DNA from: a virus
DNA: 42,508 bases
Virus record (IMG/VR): IMGVR_UViG_3300035005_000003
Coordinates: 1-42,508 of that record
Strand: one strand, 5' to 3'
Shown: positions 18,637-40,051 of the stretch, in pieces
How positions within the stretch are numbered: the stretch's first letter is position 1
Layout: each line of letters opens with the position of its first letter
Translations under genes and position numbers: made by a program
Notes under the pieces: model-generated
What the model saw: only the letters and a program-made list of their open reading frames with translations
The model's database searches: none
What the model was told of the DNA's origin: nothing

Positions 18637-21600
18637 TTATTTGAGCTTATGCTTTCTAGACACGGAACCCGTAGGCCTCGGCAATGGCTTGCCACCGGGC
18701 CGCGAAACGTCGAATACGATGATATCGGTTTGGTCTCTCAGACCGGTGGGGAGATCGACACGAAGCATTTGTTCGAGCGCTTCAGCACTTGTCGGCTTAG
18801 TAGTCCTATCCGGCCGAGCAGGGAGAGGTTTCCAATCCAGACCGAACCAGAACACCAGGTAGATGCCGTACCCGTCTGCTCCAGGGTCTGCTGCGTAGCC
18901 CTGTAGCTGCGTGGATGCTGCCTTCCAGAGTCCGGGATGGTTATGGCGTTTCGCTTCGATTGGCAGGTTTCGCCCCGCTCCCGAGAGGATGAGCATGTCG
19001 GCTCGAGTGTTGTTCGCCCGTTGTCCCTCAGCTAGCGTAGCGGCGATCTGATACCGTCTTAGGCGCTCCTCTAACATCGTTCGCACGAAATCCCGACAGT
19101 CGTTTTCCAGCAACGCTTCTTCGCAATACTCCCCCCAAAATCGCTTCCAGAGCGTGTCGCTTGTCGTGCGAATATCGTTCTTCAAACGATGCAATTCGTC
19201 CACAGCGATAGCGCGAAGGTCTTGCGCATTGACAGGCGCTTTCCCGGATAGAGCGTCTAGGGTCTTTTTAGCGGTAGGATGACGAAAGTCTCTGTCACGG
19301 GCGTTCCCCGCCGCCTCGGCTAGTCTGGTTTTGAAACTGTTAGTCCAAATTGGCAGTGCGGCATCGCTGGAGAGTTCGCGAAGGACCTTGAGCGCCGGGA
19401 GGTCTGACGCTTCAACGAGATTTTGGAGCTCGCGCTCGATTAGATCGGCAAATCGGTGCCGCCCCGAACTCAGGTCGAACCTGTCGCTGGGGCTGCAACG
19501 ATCGCCCAACAAACCGATCAGGACCGAACTTCGCGTCGCGTCCTCTGTATTCGCGTTAACGAAGGTCGCGCAAAGGTCGCTAGCCCATACCTGCGCTGCG
19601 TGCTCGATTTCATCGGCATCGGAGCAGGTGACAGCGTAACTGTCGCCAAAAGCTGTGGAGTCGAGTGCAAACTCAATGAACCGCCAAAAGGCCTTTTGTT
19701 GACGACCGACTGCGGCGTTCGATAGAGCTCGCTTCGCGAGGCGCTGTAGCTCCTGTGCATCGAGTATCTTGATTGCCGATGTAAGAGTATCTTCAAGCGC
19801 TTTCGCATTCATGCCGGGCCGCTCGAACAAAATCGCTTCGATGGCATATCCGAGAGCCTCGCAATTGGTCTCCTTTCCAATATCTGTCAGGAGCCACAAG
19901 CTTTCGAGAGTTTCGTGGCCAGCATCAAGCATCGATTGCCAATAGCGAGATAGAATTTCTCCTCCCTTTTTCGGATCGCGACTGATGCAGTCTGCGGCGA
20001 ATGTTAGAATTTTCGCTCGACGCTGATCGTCCTCGGTGAAGGTCCAGCGGAGTAGGCTGAGTGCAGTCAAAGGGGAACAGGGAATAAGGTGAGGCGGACG
20101 GCCTTCTTGCAACAAGAAGTCAACCCCGGAAACCAGCGCCAATTCCGCTGTTAGGCCACCGTGCTTTCTATGGATCTCGCCTAGCGAAACCTCGTCTTGG
20201 CCCTCAATCCCATTTTCGAGCAACCGCTCCCAACCCTGTGCAATAGCGGCGGCGCACTCGCGATCCGATTTTTCAATGATCCGGTCAAATTCAAAGGTCG
20301 GCGGGTGGTTTCCGAAATCGAGATACCATTTTGCGGCAAGCGCCAACACACCCACATTTTTGCCGGCGCGGATTTCCGCTAACTGTGGATTGAGAGTTTC
20401 TACAATACGGTTCCGATCAGCAGCAGCCTTCTCTCTTGCGAGAGCCTTTCGCTTGCCTTCTTCCTGCCGCCACGGTTCGATTTCGCAGTTTACCAACGCG
20501 ACCATCACGCCCGAGAATTCTGGTTCATCGGACAACCAGTCGTAGAGAGCCCAGTAAGAGGGCTCGTGCCGCGAGGCTCGTGTAAGATGGACCGCTATCT
20601 CGGCTAACCGCTGCGCGCCTGAGGCTCCCCTCGATCGAGCGTTCACGAGGGCATATGCGCAGATCGCGGGTGTTGGAGCGCGGCCGGTGAAGTGTTCGTA
20701 GAAAACCTTGATCATCCAGGCATGTAGCGCGGTATCGTCCGAGGCAATCAATGCGGCTGCCAGTGACACATCTCGATCTTGCGCCGCGTCGAGCCACTGC
20801 TGGATCGCTTTTCGAACATCATCAACGGCGGATGTTCCGTAGGAGACGTGGTTCAGCCACGTCAACAGCTGTTCGCCGTCCGGTGTTGGCTCTCCCGTGA
20901 TAGCGGCGGCTAGAGCACGCTCTAGCAGATGATTGACCTCAGATGTTTGAGGAGGATTCTCGGTGTCGTCTCTCCAGTTTGAAACGGGTTCATTAAACAA
21001 TTCCGGTCTTGGATAGTCCCGTAGCTGCCGGTCTAGGCGATGGAGCCCGCCGCCATGATCGCTCCTTTGAACTCGTTCAAAATCGCGTAGAATCGCTTTC
21101 AGCTCATTAAGTGGCAAGAGAGTTGCTGGTAACCGAGCCGCGATGGATGCCCGCAATTCTTCGCGGTCAGCTGACGCGGTTTCTTCAGAAAGTGTTTCGA
21201 GCAATTGTCGAAGACGCTGGTTGGGATGATCAGCGCCGTTTAGCCAAGCATCTACCGCACTTAAGCGCAACCAATTTGGCGCCCTTCTATCGTACGCAAT
21301 ATTCCTAAGAAGCGGCTCAAGAGATTTGACGGGGCGGCCGACAGTCAGGGCACTCAAAACCGCATGCAGCTTTGCACTTGTTCCACCTGTGGTGAGGATG
21401 GTTCGAAATTCCTCCGCGAGATCCTCCCCGGCTAGCGCACCGATAGTTGTGACCCCCCGCATAAAGTATGCATAGGGGTCATCGCGATCGATCTTGTCGA
21501 GCAGCAGCTTCCGGCCTTCAGTGCCAAGAACAGCAGCATCTCCATAGGAGAGAACGGTTATCGGATCGCGTTCAATGAGTTCTGCCGCTCGTTTGAAATC

Positions 21601-22677
21601 TCCATTGAAGCCGAGGTGCGCCGCGACCCAGGCGAACAGCCCACGCAGCGCACTCGGCGGCATGCCATCAGGGCCGCAGATAAGTGCCATGGCCCGCGAC
21701 AAGGGCAGGGCGGCATGATCGGCATCGCCGTTCACCGCTGCAGCCAAGGCCATTGCCCCTAGGAATTCGGCAATTGATCGGTGCGCCGGTTGAAAGAGGC
21801 TGCCTTCACCACGAAATAGCGCTGTATCCAGCGTGCTCATGAGAAGTTTAGAGTTCAGCGCAAGATCGTCCCTAGTCAGAGGAGGACGATCACCGCTTGA
21901 TCTCGGTACGGCCAAATTGGAACGCCAAATGGCGCTTGCGCCGGTAGTCAGCTGAATTAGGCACGCTTTTGCCGCAGCTGATATCCTTTCATCTACCGAG
22001 TTGCGATCAACATGCGCATAATCAGGGTTACGTTCTTCCGCCATCTGCCGGATCGCCGCCTGGTAGATTTCGAAACGGGTTGGCGGAATCGCTCCATTGG
22101 CCAGCCAAGCCTCATACAACAGGCGAACCAACAGGGGATTTTCGAGGAAAGCGGGTGCACCGATCTTCTCCACCTGCTTGACGAGTGAGAGAGGCTCGGG
22201 CGCACCAAGCGCTTCCAGCACAGCCGCTGCTTCGAAGCGATCGAGCGGCTCGAGGCTTGCGACGACGATTTTTCCATCGCCAGTCGATCGTTGCAACTCC
22301 CTCAGATCGGATAGTTCACGCCAATCCTGTCCGCGGCATGAAAGCCACCAGCTTTGTAATTTTGCGCCCTTTATGGTCTCCGCCAACAGGCAAGCCTTGT
22401 CGGCTTCCCGTCCGTCCGAACGATACTCATCGAAAGAGTCAGCATAGAGACGTTTCGTCGGATCGATCTGAGCGCCGTTCAGCAATTGCCTAACGGTGAT
22501 CGGCTCCAGTCCTTGGAGCCTTGCTGTCCCCTCGAACACCGACGATTTTCCCATACCTGGCTCGCCGAGCAAAACCACGAAGGGCTCGGAAACTATGTCA
22601 CTAATACGCTTGTAATTCTTCTTGCCCTCCTCGTCGTAGATCGCGACGCGGCGGTCAATCATTGCAAGTTTCAGCAT
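18637..22677 (-). CDS. NACHT/STAND NTPase with C-terminal RecB-like nuclease, candidate defence protein
   Basis: A 1346-residue cytoplasmic protein in three parts. The N-terminal NTPase has Walker A GEPGMGKS (38-45), Walker B LYADSFDE (77-84), LSCRGQDW (112-119), LENPLLVRLL (178-187) and the winged-helix end HRSIAEFLGA (299-308), all typical of NACHT/STAND proteins. About 800 residues of helical repeat follow, a plausible sensor. The C-terminus carries a PD-(D/E)xK nuclease: Asp1227 in TRADMLIL, Glu1241 and Lys1243 in LPIEAKR, and Q1257xxxY1261, the RecB-like order. Known Avs proteins carry their effector at the N-terminus, so this order is unusual. It stands alone, against the late operon, in a low-GC insertion. 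Anti-phage function by nucleic-acid cleavage on sensing a phage product is inferred. Confidence 0.88.
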   Translation of the reverse strand: MLKLAMIDRRVAIYDEEGKKNYKRISDIVSEPFVVLLGEPGMGKSSVFEGTARLQGLEPITVRQLLNGAQIDPTKRLYADSFDEYRSDGREADKACLLAETIKGAKLQSWWLSCRGQDWRELSDLRELQRSTGDGKIVVASLEPLDRFEAAAVLEALGAPEPLSLVKQVEKIGAPAFLENPLLVRLLYEAWLANGAIPPTRFEIYQAAIRQMAEERNPDYAHVDRNSVDERISAAAKACLIQLTTGASAIWRSNLAVPRSSGDRPPLTRDDLALNSKLLMSTLDTALFRGEGSLFQPAHRSIAEFLGAMALAAAVNGDADHAALPLSRAMALICGPDGMPPSALRGLFAWVAAHLGFNGDFKRAAELIERDPITVLSYGDAAVLGTEGRKLLLDKIDRDDPYAYFMRGVTTIGALAGEDLAEEFRTILTTGGTSAKLHAVLSALTVGRPVKSLEPLLRNIAYDRRAPNWLRLSAVDAWLNGADHPNQRLRQLLETLSEETASADREELRASIAARLPATLLPLNELKAILRDFERVQRSDHGGGLHRLDRQLRDYPRPELFNEPVSNWRDDTENPPQTSEVNHLLERALAAAITGEPTPDGEQLLTWLNHVSYGTSAVDDVRKAIQQWLDAAQDRDVSLAAALIASDDTALHAWMIKVFYEHFTGRAPTPAICAYALVNARSRGASGAQRLAEIAVHLTRASRHEPSYWALYDWLSDEPEFSGVMVALVNCEIEPWRQEEGKRKALAREKAAADRNRIVETLNPQLAEIRAGKNVGVLALAAKWYLDFGNHPPTFEFDRIIEKSDRECAAAIAQGWERLLENGIEGQDEVSLGEIHRKHGGLTAELALVSGVDFLLQEGRPPHLIPCSPLTALSLLRWTFTEDDQRRAKILTFAADCISRDPKKGGEILSRYWQSMLDAGHETLESLWLLTDIGKETNCEALGYAIEAILFERPGMNAKALEDTLTSAIKILDAQELQRLAKRALSNAAVGRQQKAFWRFIEFALDSTAFGDSYAVTCSDADEIEHAAQVWASDLCATFVNANTEDATRSSVLIGLLGDRCSPSDRFDLSSGRHRFADLIERELQNLVEASDLPALKVLRELSSDAALPIWTNSFKTRLAEAAGNARDRDFRHPTAKKTLDALSGKAPVNAQDLRAIAVDELHRLKNDIRTTSDTLWKRFWGEYCEEALLENDCRDFVRTMLEERLRRYQIAATLAEGQRANNTRADMLILSGAGRNLPIEAKRHNHPGLWKAASTQLQGYAADPGADGYGIYLVFWFGLDWKPLPARPDRTTKPTSAEALEQMLRVDLPTGLRDQTDIIVFDVSRPGGKPLPRPTGSVSRKHKLK

Positions 22678-27290: not shown

Positions 27291-28223
27291 ATGCCGATCA
27301 AATGGAAATCGAAGATCCTGCTGTGCAAGCGCGAGACGGTCTATGGCGTCGACGCGGCGCCCACCGGTACGGTCGACGGCATCCTGGCCACCAGTGTCGT
27401 GCTGTCGCCAATGGAAGGGCAGGATGTCAGCCGAGAGCATGAATTGCCCTGGCTCGGCGCGCAGGCCACGGTGCCGACGCAGCTGGCGATGCGGCTGCAA
27501 TACCGCGTCGAGATGGTGCCGTCCGGCACCGCCGGTGTCCCGCCGGCCTGGGGAACCTCGCTCAGGGCCTGCGCGGTCGGCCAGACGATCACGGCCGCCA
27601 CATCCGTTGTCTACAATCCAATCAGCGACGGCCATGAAAGCGTCACCCATCATTTCTGGATCGGTCCGACCCGTTTCGTGCTGAAGGGCAGCCGTGGCAG
27701 CGCCGTGATGCGGATCGACGCACAGGGCATTCCTTATCTCGAATTCGATTTCCGTGGCCTGTTTTCCCTGCCCAGCGATCCCGGCGTCCGGCCGACCGTC
27801 GATCTGACCGCCTTCCTGGCGCCCGACATCGCCACCAGCCTCAACACGCCTGTTTTCACGCTCGGCGCCGTGCCGCTAGTCTTGCGCAATTTCTCGCTCG
27901 ACCTCGGCAATGACGTGCAGGGCCGTTTCCTGATCGGCGCCGAGAGCATCCTTGTCGTCGACCGCACTGATGCGATCTCGTGCCAGGTCGAGGCGGTGCC
28001 GCTTTCGACATTCGACCCCTTCGCCGCCGCCGCCGGCCAGCTGCGGACAGCGCTTTCCCTGCAGCATGGCCGCAGCGCGGGCCGCAAAGCGACGCTGGCG
28101 GTCGCCGGCGCGCAATTGCAGCGGCCGAGCTTCGCCAACCAGCAGAACATCCTGGAATGGGTGCTGCCGATGGTGCCGCTGCCGACCGCCGGCAACGACC
28201 AATGGACGCTGACGCTGACCTGA
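27291..28223 (+). CDS. Tail tube (major tail) protein
   Basis: A 310-residue beta-rich protein with the start 'KSKILLCKRETVYGVDAAPT' seen in long-tailed-phage tube proteins of the B3-like type. No contractile sheath gene precedes it, so the tail is predicted to be non-contractile, unlike Mu. The chaperone pair and tape measure follow in the usual order. Confidence 0.88.
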   Translation: MPIKWKSKILLCKRETVYGVDAAPTGTVDGILATSVVLSPMEGQDVSREHELPWLGAQATVPTQLAMRLQYRVEMVPSGTAGVPPAWGTSLRACAVGQTITAATSVVYNPISDGHESVTHHFWIGPTRFVLKGSRGSAVMRIDAQGIPYLEFDFRGLFSLPSDPGVRPTVDLTAFLAPDIATSLNTPVFTLGAVPLVLRNFSLDLGNDVQGRFLIGAESILVVDRTDAISCQVEAVPLSTFDPFAAAAGQLRTALSLQHGRSAGRKATLAVAGAQLQRPSFANQQNILEWVLPMVPLPTAGNDQWTLTLT

Positions 28224-28235
28224 CGGGAGGATTTG

Positions 28236-28562
28236 ATGTTTCGCCTCGATGCCAATCCGAGTTTCTGGACGACGGTTGCGGTGCGCTCGCCGGATGGCGA
28301 GACCGAGCTCGGTTCCTTCCGCGCCGAGTTCCGGGCGCTGACCATCTCCGAGCTGGAGCGTTTCGACATGACCACCGGCGCGGGCGCGCGGGCACTGCTG
28401 CAGGCAGCCCTTGCCGCCATCGACGAGGTCGAGGACGACGACGGTTCGCCGCTGGCGCTGACGCCGCAAAGCTTCGCGCGCCTCGCCGACAACAACCATG
28501 TTCGCCAGGCGCTGCTGACCGCCTTTCTCGGCGCCATCGGTGGAGCACGCCGGGGAAACTGA
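28236..28562 (+). CDS. Tail assembly chaperone, short form
   Basis: A 108-residue protein, ATG 28236 with GGGAGG upstream (a TTG at 28233 is also in frame). It ends at a TGA directly after the heptamer GGGAAAC. In lambda-like systems the short G form and the longer GT form, made by a -1 shift, chaperone the tape measure protein; position just before the tape measure gene is the same here. The C-terminus 'VRQALLTAFLGAIGGARRG' is helical. Confidence 0.85.
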   Translation: MFRLDANPSFWTTVAVRSPDGETELGSFRAEFRALTISELERFDMTTGAGARALLQAALAAIDEVEDDDGSPLALTPQSFARLADNNHVRQALLTAFLGAIGGARRGN

Positions 28563-28972
28563 ATGCGGCCGCGCGGGCCTGGGCGGCCGGCGGCCTCGTC
28601 GAGAAAAGCGCCCGCACCGATCTGGAGGATGTTTCCCATGCCGCGCTCGATGACGCGCGCGCCTTCGCCGTGCCGCAAAACCAGCTGCTTGCCCTGGCCG
28701 AACGGCTGGCCGGGCATCGGCCTGGCGGTTTTGCCGGCGTGTGGCCGGACAATGAAGCGGCGGTCGAAGCCTTCCTTGCCGCCGCCAGCCAATGGCGCAC
28801 GACGCTTGGCCTGGAGGACGGGAGGCTGCGCGCCGTCTTCATTGGCCTCGACTATGCCGGTGCCGCCGTCGCTTTCGGCGCAGCCGGCATCCACCTCGAC
28901 CGAAAGCTGCTGGCCGATCTGCAGACCCTCGAAGCCGCGGCGCGCGATGCGCTCAACGGGGCGCTGAGATGA
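28236..28972 (+). CDS. Tail assembly chaperone, frameshifted long form
   Basis: The same start as the short form, but after slipping back one base at 28553-28559 translation continues in the -1 frame from CTG 28559 for another 137 residues, for about 245 in all. The downstream frame has no start of its own near its beginning but a clear coding pattern: 'KLNAAARAWAAGGLVEKSAR' through 'HRPGGFAGVWPDNEAAVEAF'. It ends overlapping the tape measure start (ATGA). The shift efficiency is unknown; the long form should bind the tape measure and the tube protein. Confidence 0.8.
28553..28559 (+). promoter_or_regulatory. Slippery heptamer GGGAAAC for -1 frameshift
   Basis: G GGA AAC in the zero frame is a canonical X XXY YYZ slip site; the tRNAs re-pair on GGG AAA. 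It is followed at once by the zero-frame stop TGA, which often boosts shifting. Confidence 0.8.
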
Positions 28973-30933
28973 CGCTGAGGCTGGCGCTCGTCATCGACGG
29001 CGATGCCAAGGGCGCCCGCCAGGCGCTCGACGAGACGGCGCGCGGCGTCGAGGATCTCGGCAAGAAGGCGGTGAAGACGTCCGGCGACCTCGACAAGGTG
29101 ACGGCGCGCGACACCAAAAAGCCGATCGAATGGGCACCGGTCAACGAAGAGCTGGACAAGCTCTCCAGGAAGGCGCCGCCGGCGGCCGATGCGCTGGGCA
29201 AGGTTGGCGCCGGGCTCGGCGATACCGGGCGCGCGGCACCGGGCGCCGCAACCGGCCTCGGCGATGTCGGCAAGGCGGCCGGCGGCGCCGCCGACCATCT
29301 CGGCCGCTTCCGGGGCGCAACGGTCGGGCTGCTTGCCGGTCTCGCCGGCGGCGTTGTGGGTGCGGCCGTCGCCGCCGGCCTCGGCATCGCCACCGAGGCC
29401 TTCGTCTCCTATGCCCGCGAGGTGTTCGACAACACGCCGCGCATCAACCGCGATCTCAAGGAACACACCGAACTCATCCGTCGCATCAAGGGCGCCTATG
29501 ACGAGGCGAGGGGCGGGGCCTCCTCCTACGGCCTCGAGAGCAGCTCGCTTTTGCGCTTCCAGGCGCAGCAGGACATCGGCCGCCTCGAAAAGGACGTCGA
29601 ACTGGCGATCGGCGACTTCAACGGCCGCGACCTGTTCGGTCCGCTTGCGCTGCAGAACGGGCTCGAACGTTTCCTCGAGGATTTCGGCGCGGTTGGCGAG
29701 GCGGTGCTGAAGCTGCGCCGGCAGCTGGCCGACGGCAAGGCCGACCTCATCGCCTTCCGCAACGAGATCGGCAAGGCGGCCGAGGAACTGCCGGTCGGCT
29801 CGCCCTTGCGCCAGACCGCAGAGCGGCTGATCGCCGACACCGAGCAGGCGGCCAAATTGCAGGCCGAGCTCGCCCGCGCCAAGGATCTGTTGAAGGGGCT
29901 GACCGGCGATGCCGAGGCGGCCGCGACAGCGCTGGGCGGCTCGGCCGAGAAATATCGCGACATCGGGGGCAGTGCCGCCGCGGCCAACGCGCCGATTGCG
30001 GGCGTTTCGGGCGAGATCGCCGCCTCCGGCGATGCCGCCGGCGCGGCCAACGCGCAGCTTGCCGAATATGAGCGGCTGCTGCGTTCGATTTCCGGTCTTT
30101 CGGTGCAACCGGCACTGCCGGCGGGTCCGGGCGGATTGCCGGCGGGCGGTTTCGCCGCCGGCGGCTATACCGGCCATCTGCCGGCCGACCGCGTCGCCGG
30201 CTTCGTGCATGGCCGGGAATTCGTCTTTGACGCTGCCTCGACCGCCCGCATCGGCGTCGCCAATCTGGAAGCGATGCGCGCCGGCATCTCCGGTTACGCC
30301 TCCGGCGGTTTTGTCGGTAATAGTGCGGCCTATGCCCGGCGCGGCGGAGCGGGCGGCAGTGCGGCGGAACTCGCCGAGGAGTTCGGCGCGCTGCAAGGTA
30401 TCATGCATCAGTTCGGCATGACGGTCTGGCGGGCCGGCAGCGCCGGCGAGGCGCTTGGCGGCGTCATCCAGATGGTCTCGCAGCGTTTCCTCGATTTCTC
30501 GCTGCGCGCGCTCGACCAGGCCCTGTTCGGCGGTCGGGGCGGCGGGCTCGGCATGCTCGGCGACCTGTTTGGCCTCAACGCGCTCAACATGTTCCCGGCC
30601 GCTCCGGGCGCTCTTGGTGTCGGTCTCTACCATGGCGGCGGCTCCGTCGGTGCCGCGCCCGGACCCACGCGCCGGGTGCCGCCGTCGCTGTTCATCGGCG
30701 CGCCGCGCCTGCATGGCGGCGGCTGGCTGAAACCTGGCGAGCGGCCGGTGATCGCCATGGATGGCGAGGAGATCGGCTGGCCGGAAGACCTGCAGCGCAA
30801 ATATGGCGGCGGCCGGACGGTGGTCAACAACTGGCATGTCGAGACGCCGAACCCGAAGGCCTTCGCCGAAAGCCGAGCTCTCGCCGCCCGCGCCGCCGGC
30901 CGGCTGGCGGCGCGCAGCGGCAGGTATTCGTGA
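28969..30933 (+). CDS. Tape measure protein
   Basis: A 654-residue protein that sets tail length and is ejected with the DNA. It is helical and Ala/Gly-rich: N-terminal 'LRLALVIDGDAKGARQALDE', hydrophobic membrane-like segments at about 115-145 ('LLAGLAGGVVGAAVAAGLGI'), and repeated '(A/G)GGYTGHLPADRVAGFVHG'-type Gly turns at about 390-450 that tape measures commonly show. A short tape fits a short siphovirus tail. The start overlaps the chaperone stop. Confidence 0.92.
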   Translation: MTLRLALVIDGDAKGARQALDETARGVEDLGKKAVKTSGDLDKVTARDTKKPIEWAPVNEELDKLSRKAPPAADALGKVGAGLGDTGRAAPGAATGLGDVGKAAGGAADHLGRFRGATVGLLAGLAGGVVGAAVAAGLGIATEAFVSYAREVFDNTPRINRDLKEHTELIRRIKGAYDEARGGASSYGLESSSLLRFQAQQDIGRLEKDVELAIGDFNGRDLFGPLALQNGLERFLEDFGAVGEAVLKLRRQLADGKADLIAFRNEIGKAAEELPVGSPLRQTAERLIADTEQAAKLQAELARAKDLLKGLTGDAEAAATALGGSAEKYRDIGGSAAAANAPIAGVSGEIAASGDAAGAANAQLAEYERLLRSISGLSVQPALPAGPGGLPAGGFAAGGYTGHLPADRVAGFVHGREFVFDAASTARIGVANLEAMRAGISGYASGGFVGNSAAYARRGGAGGSAAELAEEFGALQGIMHQFGMTVWRAGSAGEALGGVIQMVSQRFLDFSLRALDQALFGGRGGGLGMLGDLFGLNALNMFPAAPGALGVGLYHGGGSVGAAPGPTRRVPPSLFIGAPRLHGGGWLKPGERPVIAMDGEEIGWPEDLQRKYGGGRTVVNNWHVETPNPKAFAESRALAARAAGRLAARSGRYS

Positions 30934-37637: not shown

Positions 37638-38444
37638 ATGAGCCTTGAAGATGAGTTTACGGCGGTCGAAACAGCGCAGCCGCCAGCGCCCTATATCGGC
37701 GGCAAGCGTCGCCTTGCAGCACATATCGCCGCGCGAATTGCCGCAATTCCGCATCGAACCTATGCCGAAGTTTTTGTTGGCATGGGTGGCGTCTTCTTTC
37801 GTCGACGGCAGCGGCCGCGGTCAGAGGTGATCAACGACCGCAGCGGCGAGGTGGCGAACCTGTTCCGCATCCTGCAGCGGCACTATCCGCAGTTTTTGGA
37901 CACGCTGCGTTTCCAGATCACCGGCCGCAAGGAATTCGAGCGGCTGAAGGCGTCCGATCCGGTGACGCTGACCGATTTGGAGCGGGCAGGCCGTTTTCTC
38001 TACCTTCAACGGATCGCCTTTGGCGGCAAGGTTTCCGGTCGAAACTTCGGCGTCGACCCGGGCTCGGGCGGTGCATTCAACCTGTCGCGCTTGGAGCCGC
38101 TCCTGGCCGACGTGCATGAGCGTCTCGCCGGCGTGGTGATCGAATGCCTTGACTGGCTGGACTTCATCGATCGCTACGACCGGCCGGAGACGCTGTTCTA
38201 TCTCGATCCACCCTATTTCGGCTCGGAAGGCGACTACGGCCGCGATTTGTTCGGCCGCGAGCAATTCGCACTGATGGCCGAGTGCTTGGCGCGCCTAAAA
38301 GGCCGCTTCCTGCTCTCCATCAACGATGTGCCCGAGATCCGCACTGCCTTCACTGGTTTTGCCTTCGAAGAGGTTGAACTGAATTATACGGTCGCAGGCG
38401 GTCGTGGGGCGAAACCGGCACGGGAGTTGATAGTCTCATCTTGA
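37638..38444 (+). CDS. Dam-type D12 class DNA adenine methylase
   Basis: A 268-residue N6-adenine methyltransferase. Motif I-like 'PYIGGKRRLA' (18-27) and 'EVFVGMGGVF' (44-53) bind S-adenosylmethionine, and the catalytic DPPY is at 190-193 in 'LFYLDPPYFGSEGDYG'. Phage enzymes of this kind protect DNA from host restriction or adjust regulation. It stands just after the tail genes, where Mu carries its own DNA-modification gene. Its end overlaps the end of the KAP gene by 9 bases. Confidence 0.93.
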   Translation: MSLEDEFTAVETAQPPAPYIGGKRRLAAHIAARIAAIPHRTYAEVFVGMGGVFFRRRQRPRSEVINDRSGEVANLFRILQRHYPQFLDTLRFQITGRKEFERLKASDPVTLTDLERAGRFLYLQRIAFGGKVSGRNFGVDPGSGGAFNLSRLEPLLADVHERLAGVVIECLDWLDFIDRYDRPETLFYLDPPYFGSEGDYGRDLFGREQFALMAECLARLKGRFLLSINDVPEIRTAFTGFAFEEVELNYTVAGGRGAKPARELIVSS

Positions 38445-39935
38445 AGTGTCGTCGTTGAGAACCCTTCCGGCGCTTTGGATAAGAGAACGCAATGATAGCA
38501 GGATACTTGGGCCCTGCTGATGTGCAATCCGGGCATTGAACTCGCGTGAGAGGTAGCGCTGAATGTATTCATCGGCGGGATTGGGGCCGGCAGATCGTCC
38601 GACGACCCCGCTGTATAGGTCACCGGACTGGGCCAGCAAATTGACTGTCATTCCAAAGACATCAATTCTTTGTGGCTGTTGCTCATAGTTTCTCGAAGAC
38701 GTGAACATCCATCGGCCTCTGACAGACTCAAAGAACACATTCGTATTGAAATCCTGCCGTTGGTGATAACAGGTGCTCAGAAGTAGTAGGGAAGCGGTGT
38801 CAATTGGCAGCTTCGATGACCACGCCGAGATCGTGGCGGTGATGATCTCGATGATCTGCTCGACGGAGCGCAATGGCATGGGCTGCAATGCCTGGAAGCC
38901 GTGAATTATAGTTTCGCGCGGCTTTTCCAGGCCGCTGTCCAGCTTCGAAAGGTCGAGGTCGACTATGCGGCTGGCGACAAATTGGTTGACGTCGGGCTCG
39001 GCGAACACATAGCGCCGGTCGAAAAAGCGGGTAAGGTAGCCGCTACCATCGAAGTCGCCACCGTAGACGCCGCGCACGGCATGCTGCAATTGACCTGCGT
39101 CGGTTGCGAAGATGAATGCGACCCCGTCTGCTTCGAACAAGTGCTTGGCACGTTCGAGCAGCGAAATGGCATAGGTCGGCCGGCACCGATCCAGTTCGTC
39201 GACTAGAACGAAAAGTGGCGCCTTCCGATCAGCCTCGGCCATGGTCTTGGTGATGGCGGCCATGTTGCCCCGGAAACCGGAAATTGACTTGCTCGTGGTG
39301 TTGAATTTGGCAATCAGCGCGTCGGCCGCTCGATCAGTTAGCGACGAAATCTCCTTCGTCGCCTCTTCCAGGGCCGTACCGATGACATCCTCGCTCGCTG
39401 GTTTCGCCGAGGGTGTCTTGTTGTCCTTCTGCTTTGTCTCTTCCGCTTCTAAGATCAAGTCCTCGACGCTCTCACCGACATATCGTTTTAGCGCCGTTTT
39501 GGCAGCAGCGACCGCTACTTTTCCCGCAATTCGCACACCGTTGGTCTTGGCCGCGCCCCAGGCAGCAGAGATCTTGCCGGGTTTCTTCAGATAGGGATCG
39601 AGGACTTTTTCGATGGCGGCCATCAACGATATGAGCGGATCGTCTGAGTGATCGTCTCTCCACGCGTTGACCTCCGCAACCAGATGCCCCTCAAATCTCA
39701 ATTGCTCGGCCAGGCGGGACAGGAAGAACGACTTGCCGCCACCCCATGGTGAATCCACGTTGAGAACGTATGAAGCAACTCTCCCGTTTTTTCTGCGGAG
39801 TTCGATTTGCCCCCTGATGAAATCGGAAACAAACCGGGCATCTTCGCGACGACCCAGGTGGTCGTCCGCCCAAATGAGGTCCAAAGGGTCGTTCTCCGCA
39901 GTTTCCGCTGCGGTCTCCGATATGCCATCGTTCAC
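38436..39935 (-). CDS. KAP-family P-loop NTPase, candidate defence or moron
   Basis: A 499-residue protein from GTG 39935 (GGTGAG just upstream); a TTG at 39995 would add 20 residues. Walker A is SPWGGGKSF at 62-70, with the first Gly of the motif replaced by Ser. Walker B with the family tail is 'LFVLVDELDRCRP' at 241-253, the KAP signature. Between them lies an insert of about 100 residues with a hydrophobic stretch 'VRIAGKVAVAAAKTALKRYV', in the place where KAP proteins have membrane helices. Some KAP NTPases, such as PifA of plasmid F, exclude phages. It is convergent to the methylase and sits in a lower-GC block, so it is probably accessory cargo. Confidence 0.88.
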   Translation of the reverse strand: MNDGISETAAETAENDPLDLIWADDHLGRREDARFVSDFIRGQIELRRKNGRVASYVLNVDSPWGGGKSFFLSRLAEQLRFEGHLVAEVNAWRDDHSDDPLISLMAAIEKVLDPYLKKPGKISAAWGAAKTNGVRIAGKVAVAAAKTALKRYVGESVEDLILEAEETKQKDNKTPSAKPASEDVIGTALEEATKEISSLTDRAADALIAKFNTTSKSISGFRGNMAAITKTMAEADRKAPLFVLVDELDRCRPTYAISLLERAKHLFEADGVAFIFATDAGQLQHAVRGVYGGDFDGSGYLTRFFDRRYVFAEPDVNQFVASRIVDLDLSKLDSGLEKPRETIIHGFQALQPMPLRSVEQIIEIITATISAWSSKLPIDTASLLLLSTCYHQRQDFNTNVFFESVRGRWMFTSSRNYEQQPQRIDVFGMTVNLLAQSGDLYSGVVGRSAGPNPADEYIQRYLSREFNARIAHQQGPSILLSLRSLIQSAGRVLNDDTSR

Positions 39936-40051
39936 CCTGCTCACCCCCAACTGTTGCCCAGTACAGAGGTAGCGTATTTCTTTGCTGCGCTTCAACGCGA
40001 TCTCGTCTGTTCGCGACGGTATTCACAGAGAGGGGGCTGTTGGAGCTATCA

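Follow-up and report, generated by a model that had tools for sequence, protein, structure and literature searches.

Frameshifted tail assembly chaperones in tailed phages

Among the closest described systems, the gpG/gpGT pair of lambda arises from a -1 slip at GGGAAAN near the end of the chaperone gene that precedes the tape measure gene. An excerpt of the review PMC5009743 puts the ratio in lambda at 30:1 and states that the T part binds the major tail protein; it also gives G_GGA_AAC and A_AAA_AAC as motifs used by archaeal viruses. According to an excerpt of PMC3556154, phiCbK and Colossus use AAAAAAC and GGGAAAC. In Burkholderia phage KL1 (gp18/gp19) GGGAAAC stands directly before TGA (excerpt of PMC3483164), and in Acinetobacter phage Loki (gp12/gp13) AAAAAAC adjoins the stop codon (excerpt of PMC5313236); however, these excerpts describe both as siphoviruses, not as Mu-like phages, and an extra gene separates the frameshifted pair from the tape measure gene. 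Coliphage Mu has a Mu-like genome and a frameshifted pair of tail assembly genes ahead of its tape measure gene, but its tail is contractile and the reported shift is -2 (excerpt of PMC2628397). A brief look at the chaperone genes of B3 and D3112 revealed no heptamer standing directly before the stop.

Rhodobacter phage RcapMu (NC_016165, genes 49/50) is Mu-like with a siphoviral tail and has the order chaperone, DUF1799, tape measure. It carries GGGAAACTGA at the junction, and in its GenBank record the first base of GGGAAAC is annotated as a 'potential -1 frameshift'. It is a divergent homologue, whose own DUF1799 gene is annotated separately from an internal start. The frameshift trick itself is already known from many phages, and the locus analysed here very probably has a particularly tidy form of it.

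Site and layout in the window

The window, that is, the whole stretch of DNA analysed, is a 42,508-base virus record. The features around the site are as follows.

27291-28223, + strand: probable tail tube/major tail protein gene (phrog_290, 1.8e-23; Phage_tube_2, 4.7e-5, under the curated cut-off)
28236-28562, + strand: zero-frame putative tail assembly chaperone (G-like), 108 aa, C-terminus ...RRGN-stop (phrog_569, 5e-14)
28553-28559, + strand: slippery heptamer G GGA AAC in the -1 slip phase (from the sequence; conserved in relatives)
28560-28562, + strand: zero-frame TGA stop, flush with the heptamer (a flush stop in 101 of 110 distinct heptamer loci)
28559-28972, + strand: -1 extension (T-like), 137 codons and TGA, DUF1799 (PF08809, 1.1e-9; phrog_680, 1.8e-13)
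28566-28589, + strand: possible stimulatory stem-loop, 6 nt beyond the heptamer, in which 28566-28572 and 28583-28589 pair as an outer stem of 7 bp (family-wide excess structure here)
28969-30933, + strand: tape measure protein gene, its ATG overlapping the -1 frame stop (phrog_24, 3.8e-12, and other tape measure PHROGs)

The sequence-only reading had proposed a programmed -1 frameshift at GGGAAAC, and its description of the site holds in each detail. The heptamer lies in the -1 slip phase right before the stop, the last zero-frame codons being CGG GGA AAC TGA. The -1 frame is open from 28559 for 137 codons to TGA 28970-28972, with the tape measure ATG at 28969. As had also been said, it opens away from any start codon: ATG, GTG and TTG are absent from this frame over 28469-28669, the first being GTG 28670, and the frame does contain CTG 28559, which overlaps the stop, and CTG 28622. 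The heptamer at 28553-28559 is the only in-phase one of the zero-frame gene, and the expected fusion junction reads ...GGARRGN-LNAAARAW...

The same reading had called this the lambda G/GT design. The layout part of that claim stands: the pair is preceded by the probable tail tube gene and followed by the tape measure gene, an in-phase heptamer stands near the end of the first ORF, and the second ORF is in the -1 frame. Three details depart from lambda, namely the last base of the heptamer, the position of the stop and the -1 part: in lambda, examined for comparison, the heptamer is GGGAAAG and 5 codons separate it from the stop, whereas the window has GGGAAAC with a flush stop and, unlike lambda, a -1 part belonging to DUF1799.

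The assignment of the record to a Mu-like transposable phage is borne out by Mu transposase domains, Gam, Mu portal, F and protease I homologues. The tail module is siphoviral and GTA-like, with DUF2460, a phiJL001 Gp84-type hub, NlpC/P60 and a GTA TIM-barrel protein. Elsewhere in the record, the low-GC left end (314-1357, + strand) encodes a 347-aa reverse transcriptase matching the PADLOC type VI retron RT (2.8e-59), which is likely a phage-borne defence gene; an Rfam search of the window gave no match. At the low-GC right end, a 519-aa ORF (38436-39995, - strand) matches the PADLOC candidate family PDC-S20 (1e-73). A low-GC stretch that separates the Mu F-like gene from the protease gene holds a 1346-aa ORF (18637-22677, - strand), which has no Pfam or PADLOC match and looks like cargo.

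Coding and chance at the single locus

When the codons of the zero-frame gene were shuffled, 29% of the permuted genes had an in-phase heptamer at some position, 0.31% had a flush heptamer and 0.015% a flush XXXAAAN. The 15 main ORFs together hold 6 in-phase heptamers over 6341 codons, the chaperone's own counted. The chance statistic of this single gene is modest, and it is conservation (110 of 113 loci, see below) that decides.

In nine close relatives, mismatches at the three codon positions are 0.42, 0.40 and 0.55 for the zero frame upstream of the site, and 0.35, 0.32 and 0.54 for the -1 frame downstream. Since the peak falls at position 3 of the expected frame on each side, both frames are conserved as proteins. 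This measure replaced pairwise identity per reading frame, which failed to discriminate between the frames and, on the upstream side, scored the -1 frame higher, probably since columns are lost when an alignment is out of frame.

Conservation of the heptamer among DUF1799 loci

Loci with a match in the DUF1799 frame were collected from IMG/VR contigs, genome contigs, whole genomes and named phages. Whole genomes with a match were 17 of 385, 29 of 398 and 17 of 397, five matches of one of these sets coming without loci; among phage records 176 matched, from which five new ones were taken besides RC1 and RS1. The 135 loci were collapsed at 90% identity to 113 distinct ones, six loci repeating the window or another included locus (L008-L013) having been removed before this count, and RcapMu (L141) stands outside it. 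The junction rule was X XXA AAN with YYY = AAA only, a zero-frame ORF of at least 80 codons upstream and a stop within 40 codons.

Conservation of the heptamer in homologues had been named as a check by the sequence-only reading, and the result upholds it: an in-phase X XXA AAN stands at the junction in 110 of the 113 distinct loci, although these are related by descent, so that the counts are not independent. A single unshifted ORF, which would have spoken against the reading, occurs in 0 of the 112 loci with upstream sequence. In the exception L135 the contig starts inside the DUF1799 domain. In L098 (about 2920-2960) GGGAAACTGA is intact and the -1 frame is broken just downstream, which is either a sequence error or a decayed prophage gene. 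Pectobacterium phage Taid (L036, 1465-1800) has the same layout without a heptamer; T CAA AAG is directly followed by TAA there, an arrangement compatible with a single tRNA slipping on A AAG.

The 110 heptamers comprise GGGAAAC (58), AAAAAAC (49), AAAAAAT (1), AAAAAAG (1) and GGGAAAT (1), so that 107 end in C, 2 in T and 1 in G. A conserved -1-frame leucine, whose codon begins with this last base, may be enough to explain the C; the effect of the leucine and selection for weak slipping are inseparable here. GGG accounts for 25% of the glycine codons in the -1 parts and AAA for 40% of the lysine codons; despite these shares, the heptamer is kept via GGG-AAA and AAA-AAA alike. In six of six aligned close loci GGGAAACTGA is identical and forms the longest invariant run of their alignment. 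A second heptamer within 45 nt is found in phase 0 in 5 of the 110 loci, in phase 1 in 5 and in phase 2 in 25, the last probably being overlapping A-runs.

The flush stop

In 101 of the 110 loci the zero-frame stop directly follows the heptamer (TGA 83, TAA 10, TAG 8). The idea that a flush stop is never TAG was rejected on the 8 TAG cases. Every junction CTG is followed by A (81/81), as against 83 of the 483 CTG codons found at other places in these -1 parts, and CTA accounts for 19 of 107 Leu codons at the junction versus 49 of 1226 elsewhere in the -1 parts; stops are 2.6% of zero-frame codons further on. The codon choice at the junction is therefore far from background, and the flush stop is not a by-product of the protein sequence. 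Common descent inflates all these figures, though the sites have diverged in other respects. Nine of the 110 loci keep the heptamer without a flush stop, the codon there being CTC, CTA, CGG or GAA.

A flush stop could also serve termination and reinitiation, with ribosomes stopping at TGA 28560 and restarting at the overlapping CTG 28559, so that DUF1799 would be made as a separate protein. CTG overlaps the stop in the window and stands at this place in 81 of 110 loci, and the RS1 and RC1 records start the downstream gene at it. However, CTG is a poor start, CTA takes its place in 19 of 110 loci, and the nine loci without a flush stop have no usable start either. No ATG, GTG or TTG is conserved: within 30 nt of the heptamer one of them is found in the -1 frame in 25 of 110 loci and none in 85. 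Restarting needs no GGGAAA or AAAAAA ahead, and the retention of these runs would go unexplained. This route is consequently very improbable beside programmed -1 frameshifting.

Downstream RNA structure

Across the loci, the RNA that follows the heptamer folds more stably than permuted versions of itself. In 50-nt stretches beginning 5 nt after the heptamer, the mean z across loci against dinucleotide shuffles is -1.20 (s.e. 0.17), and at nine other offsets it ranges from -0.35 to +0.04. The stricter test permutes synonymous codons inside each -1 part. Under it, codons 2-14 give z -0.91 (s.e. 0.16, n=110), with 46 of 110 loci below -1 and 8 above +1; the values for three control stretches are +0.07, -0.19 and +0.14. 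The AAA group shows a stronger excess (-1.28) than the GGG group (-0.59).

For the window by itself, synonymous permutation gives no significant signal (z -0.56), nor is the stretch 28563-28592 significant (MFE -18.1 kcal/mol, z -0.52); a structure claim from the window alone was dropped, as z against dinucleotide shuffles was positive in longer stretches. The 7-bp G+C stem six nt after the heptamer is the obvious candidate structure.

Transcriptional slippage in an A-run, yielding mRNAs in both frames, is conceivable for the 49 of 110 loci with AAAAAAC, where the polymerase could slip. The window and 57 further loci of the 110, however, have only the run GGG AAA, and such slippage needs neither the flush stop, nor the slip phase, nor the downstream structure, which leaves it even less credible than reinitiation.

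The two proteins

The -1 product exceeds the curated cut-off of DUF1799 (PF08809) with 38.8 bits vs 26 (1.1e-9), and DUF1799 is matched by 37 of 37 aligned sequences at E<=0.1. Phage_TAC_4 matches the zero-frame product at E 0.014, under its cut-off; of the 37 sequences aligned, 18 match it at E<=0.1, the best at 7.4e-5. The chaperone function is suggested by the position, the design and this weak relation to Phage_TAC_4. Both phrog_569 and phrog_680 carry the label 'tail length tape measure protein', which we think is a labelling error.

Structure predictions, which took 37 sequences each, gave the two parts confident folds, with mean pLDDT values of 90.9 and 88.9. No solved structure in the PDB matches either predicted fold at E<=0.001, and PDB sequence searches also gave no usable relative; kinship or homology to lambda G or T therefore stays unsupported by sequence or fold. 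Weak matches to ribosomal L20 (best E 0.015) were taken as chance. Against named phages, tblastn of the -1 part found no match and tblastn of the zero-frame part found only RC1 and RS1 (four records); the zero-frame part as query against viral contigs found no relative.

In the aligned DUF1799 sequences a conserved L-x-x-A-A-R-x-W block starts right at the junction. Two independent proteins, the second from a start inside the -1 frame such as GTG 28670, would accord with the internal starts annotated in S-CBS1 and vB_ThpS-P1, but would lose this block and have next to no probability. As a separate observation, the -1 part of L017, whose heptamer is AAAAAAT followed by TGA, contains downstream of the block a tandem repeat of an NCLQENC-like peptide (about 1340-1480).

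Proposed mechanism

Programmed -1 ribosomal frameshifting very probably explains this site, judging from a sequence that joins the signal and two conserved frames to a kept heptamer with flush stop and a family-wide excess of downstream structure. We infer that slippage occurs, at a rate and with roles for both proteins as follows. Most ribosomes would read GGA AAC UGA and release the 108-aa chaperone, while a minority would re-pair on GGG AAA and go on with CUG AAU GCG to give a 245-aa chaperone-DUF1799 fusion. Carrying over the roles of lambda gpG/gpGT, one may expect the short form to coat the tape measure protein and the extension of the rare long form to recruit the tail tube protein.

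As an A-site codon, AAC re-pairs poorly in E. coli; together with the immediate stop, this suggests that shifting would be infrequent, would rely on the stem downstream and would be sensitive to release factor. An excerpt of PMC4066793 places G_GG.A_AA.C among the low-efficiency motifs in E. coli, which counts against the frameshift reading. A tentative and rather doubtful extension of it is that DUF1799-class chaperones use the heptamer, the flush stop and the stem after them as parts of a single integrated signal, through which the ratio of chaperone to fusion, and hence tail assembly, might follow the termination capacity of the host.

Meaning for annotation and for the family

In open-licence papers no description was found of a family-wide flush stop or of a synonymous-site structure signal for DUF1799. 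In the records examined, DUF1799 genes are called separately from weak or internal starts, or are labelled tape measure protein; in RS1 and RC1 (L004 2830, L005 2830) the gene starting at the frameshift-site CTG bears that name. The finding offers a correction, namely that a DUF1799 gene ahead of a tape measure gene should be taken as the C-terminal part of the tail chaperone, reached by frameshifting. In addition, the family supplies more than 100 natural variants of one simple bacterial frameshift signal in which the position of the stop codon is fixed, and with these variants one could measure, on native sequences, how a stop in the A site and release factor affect -1 slippage.
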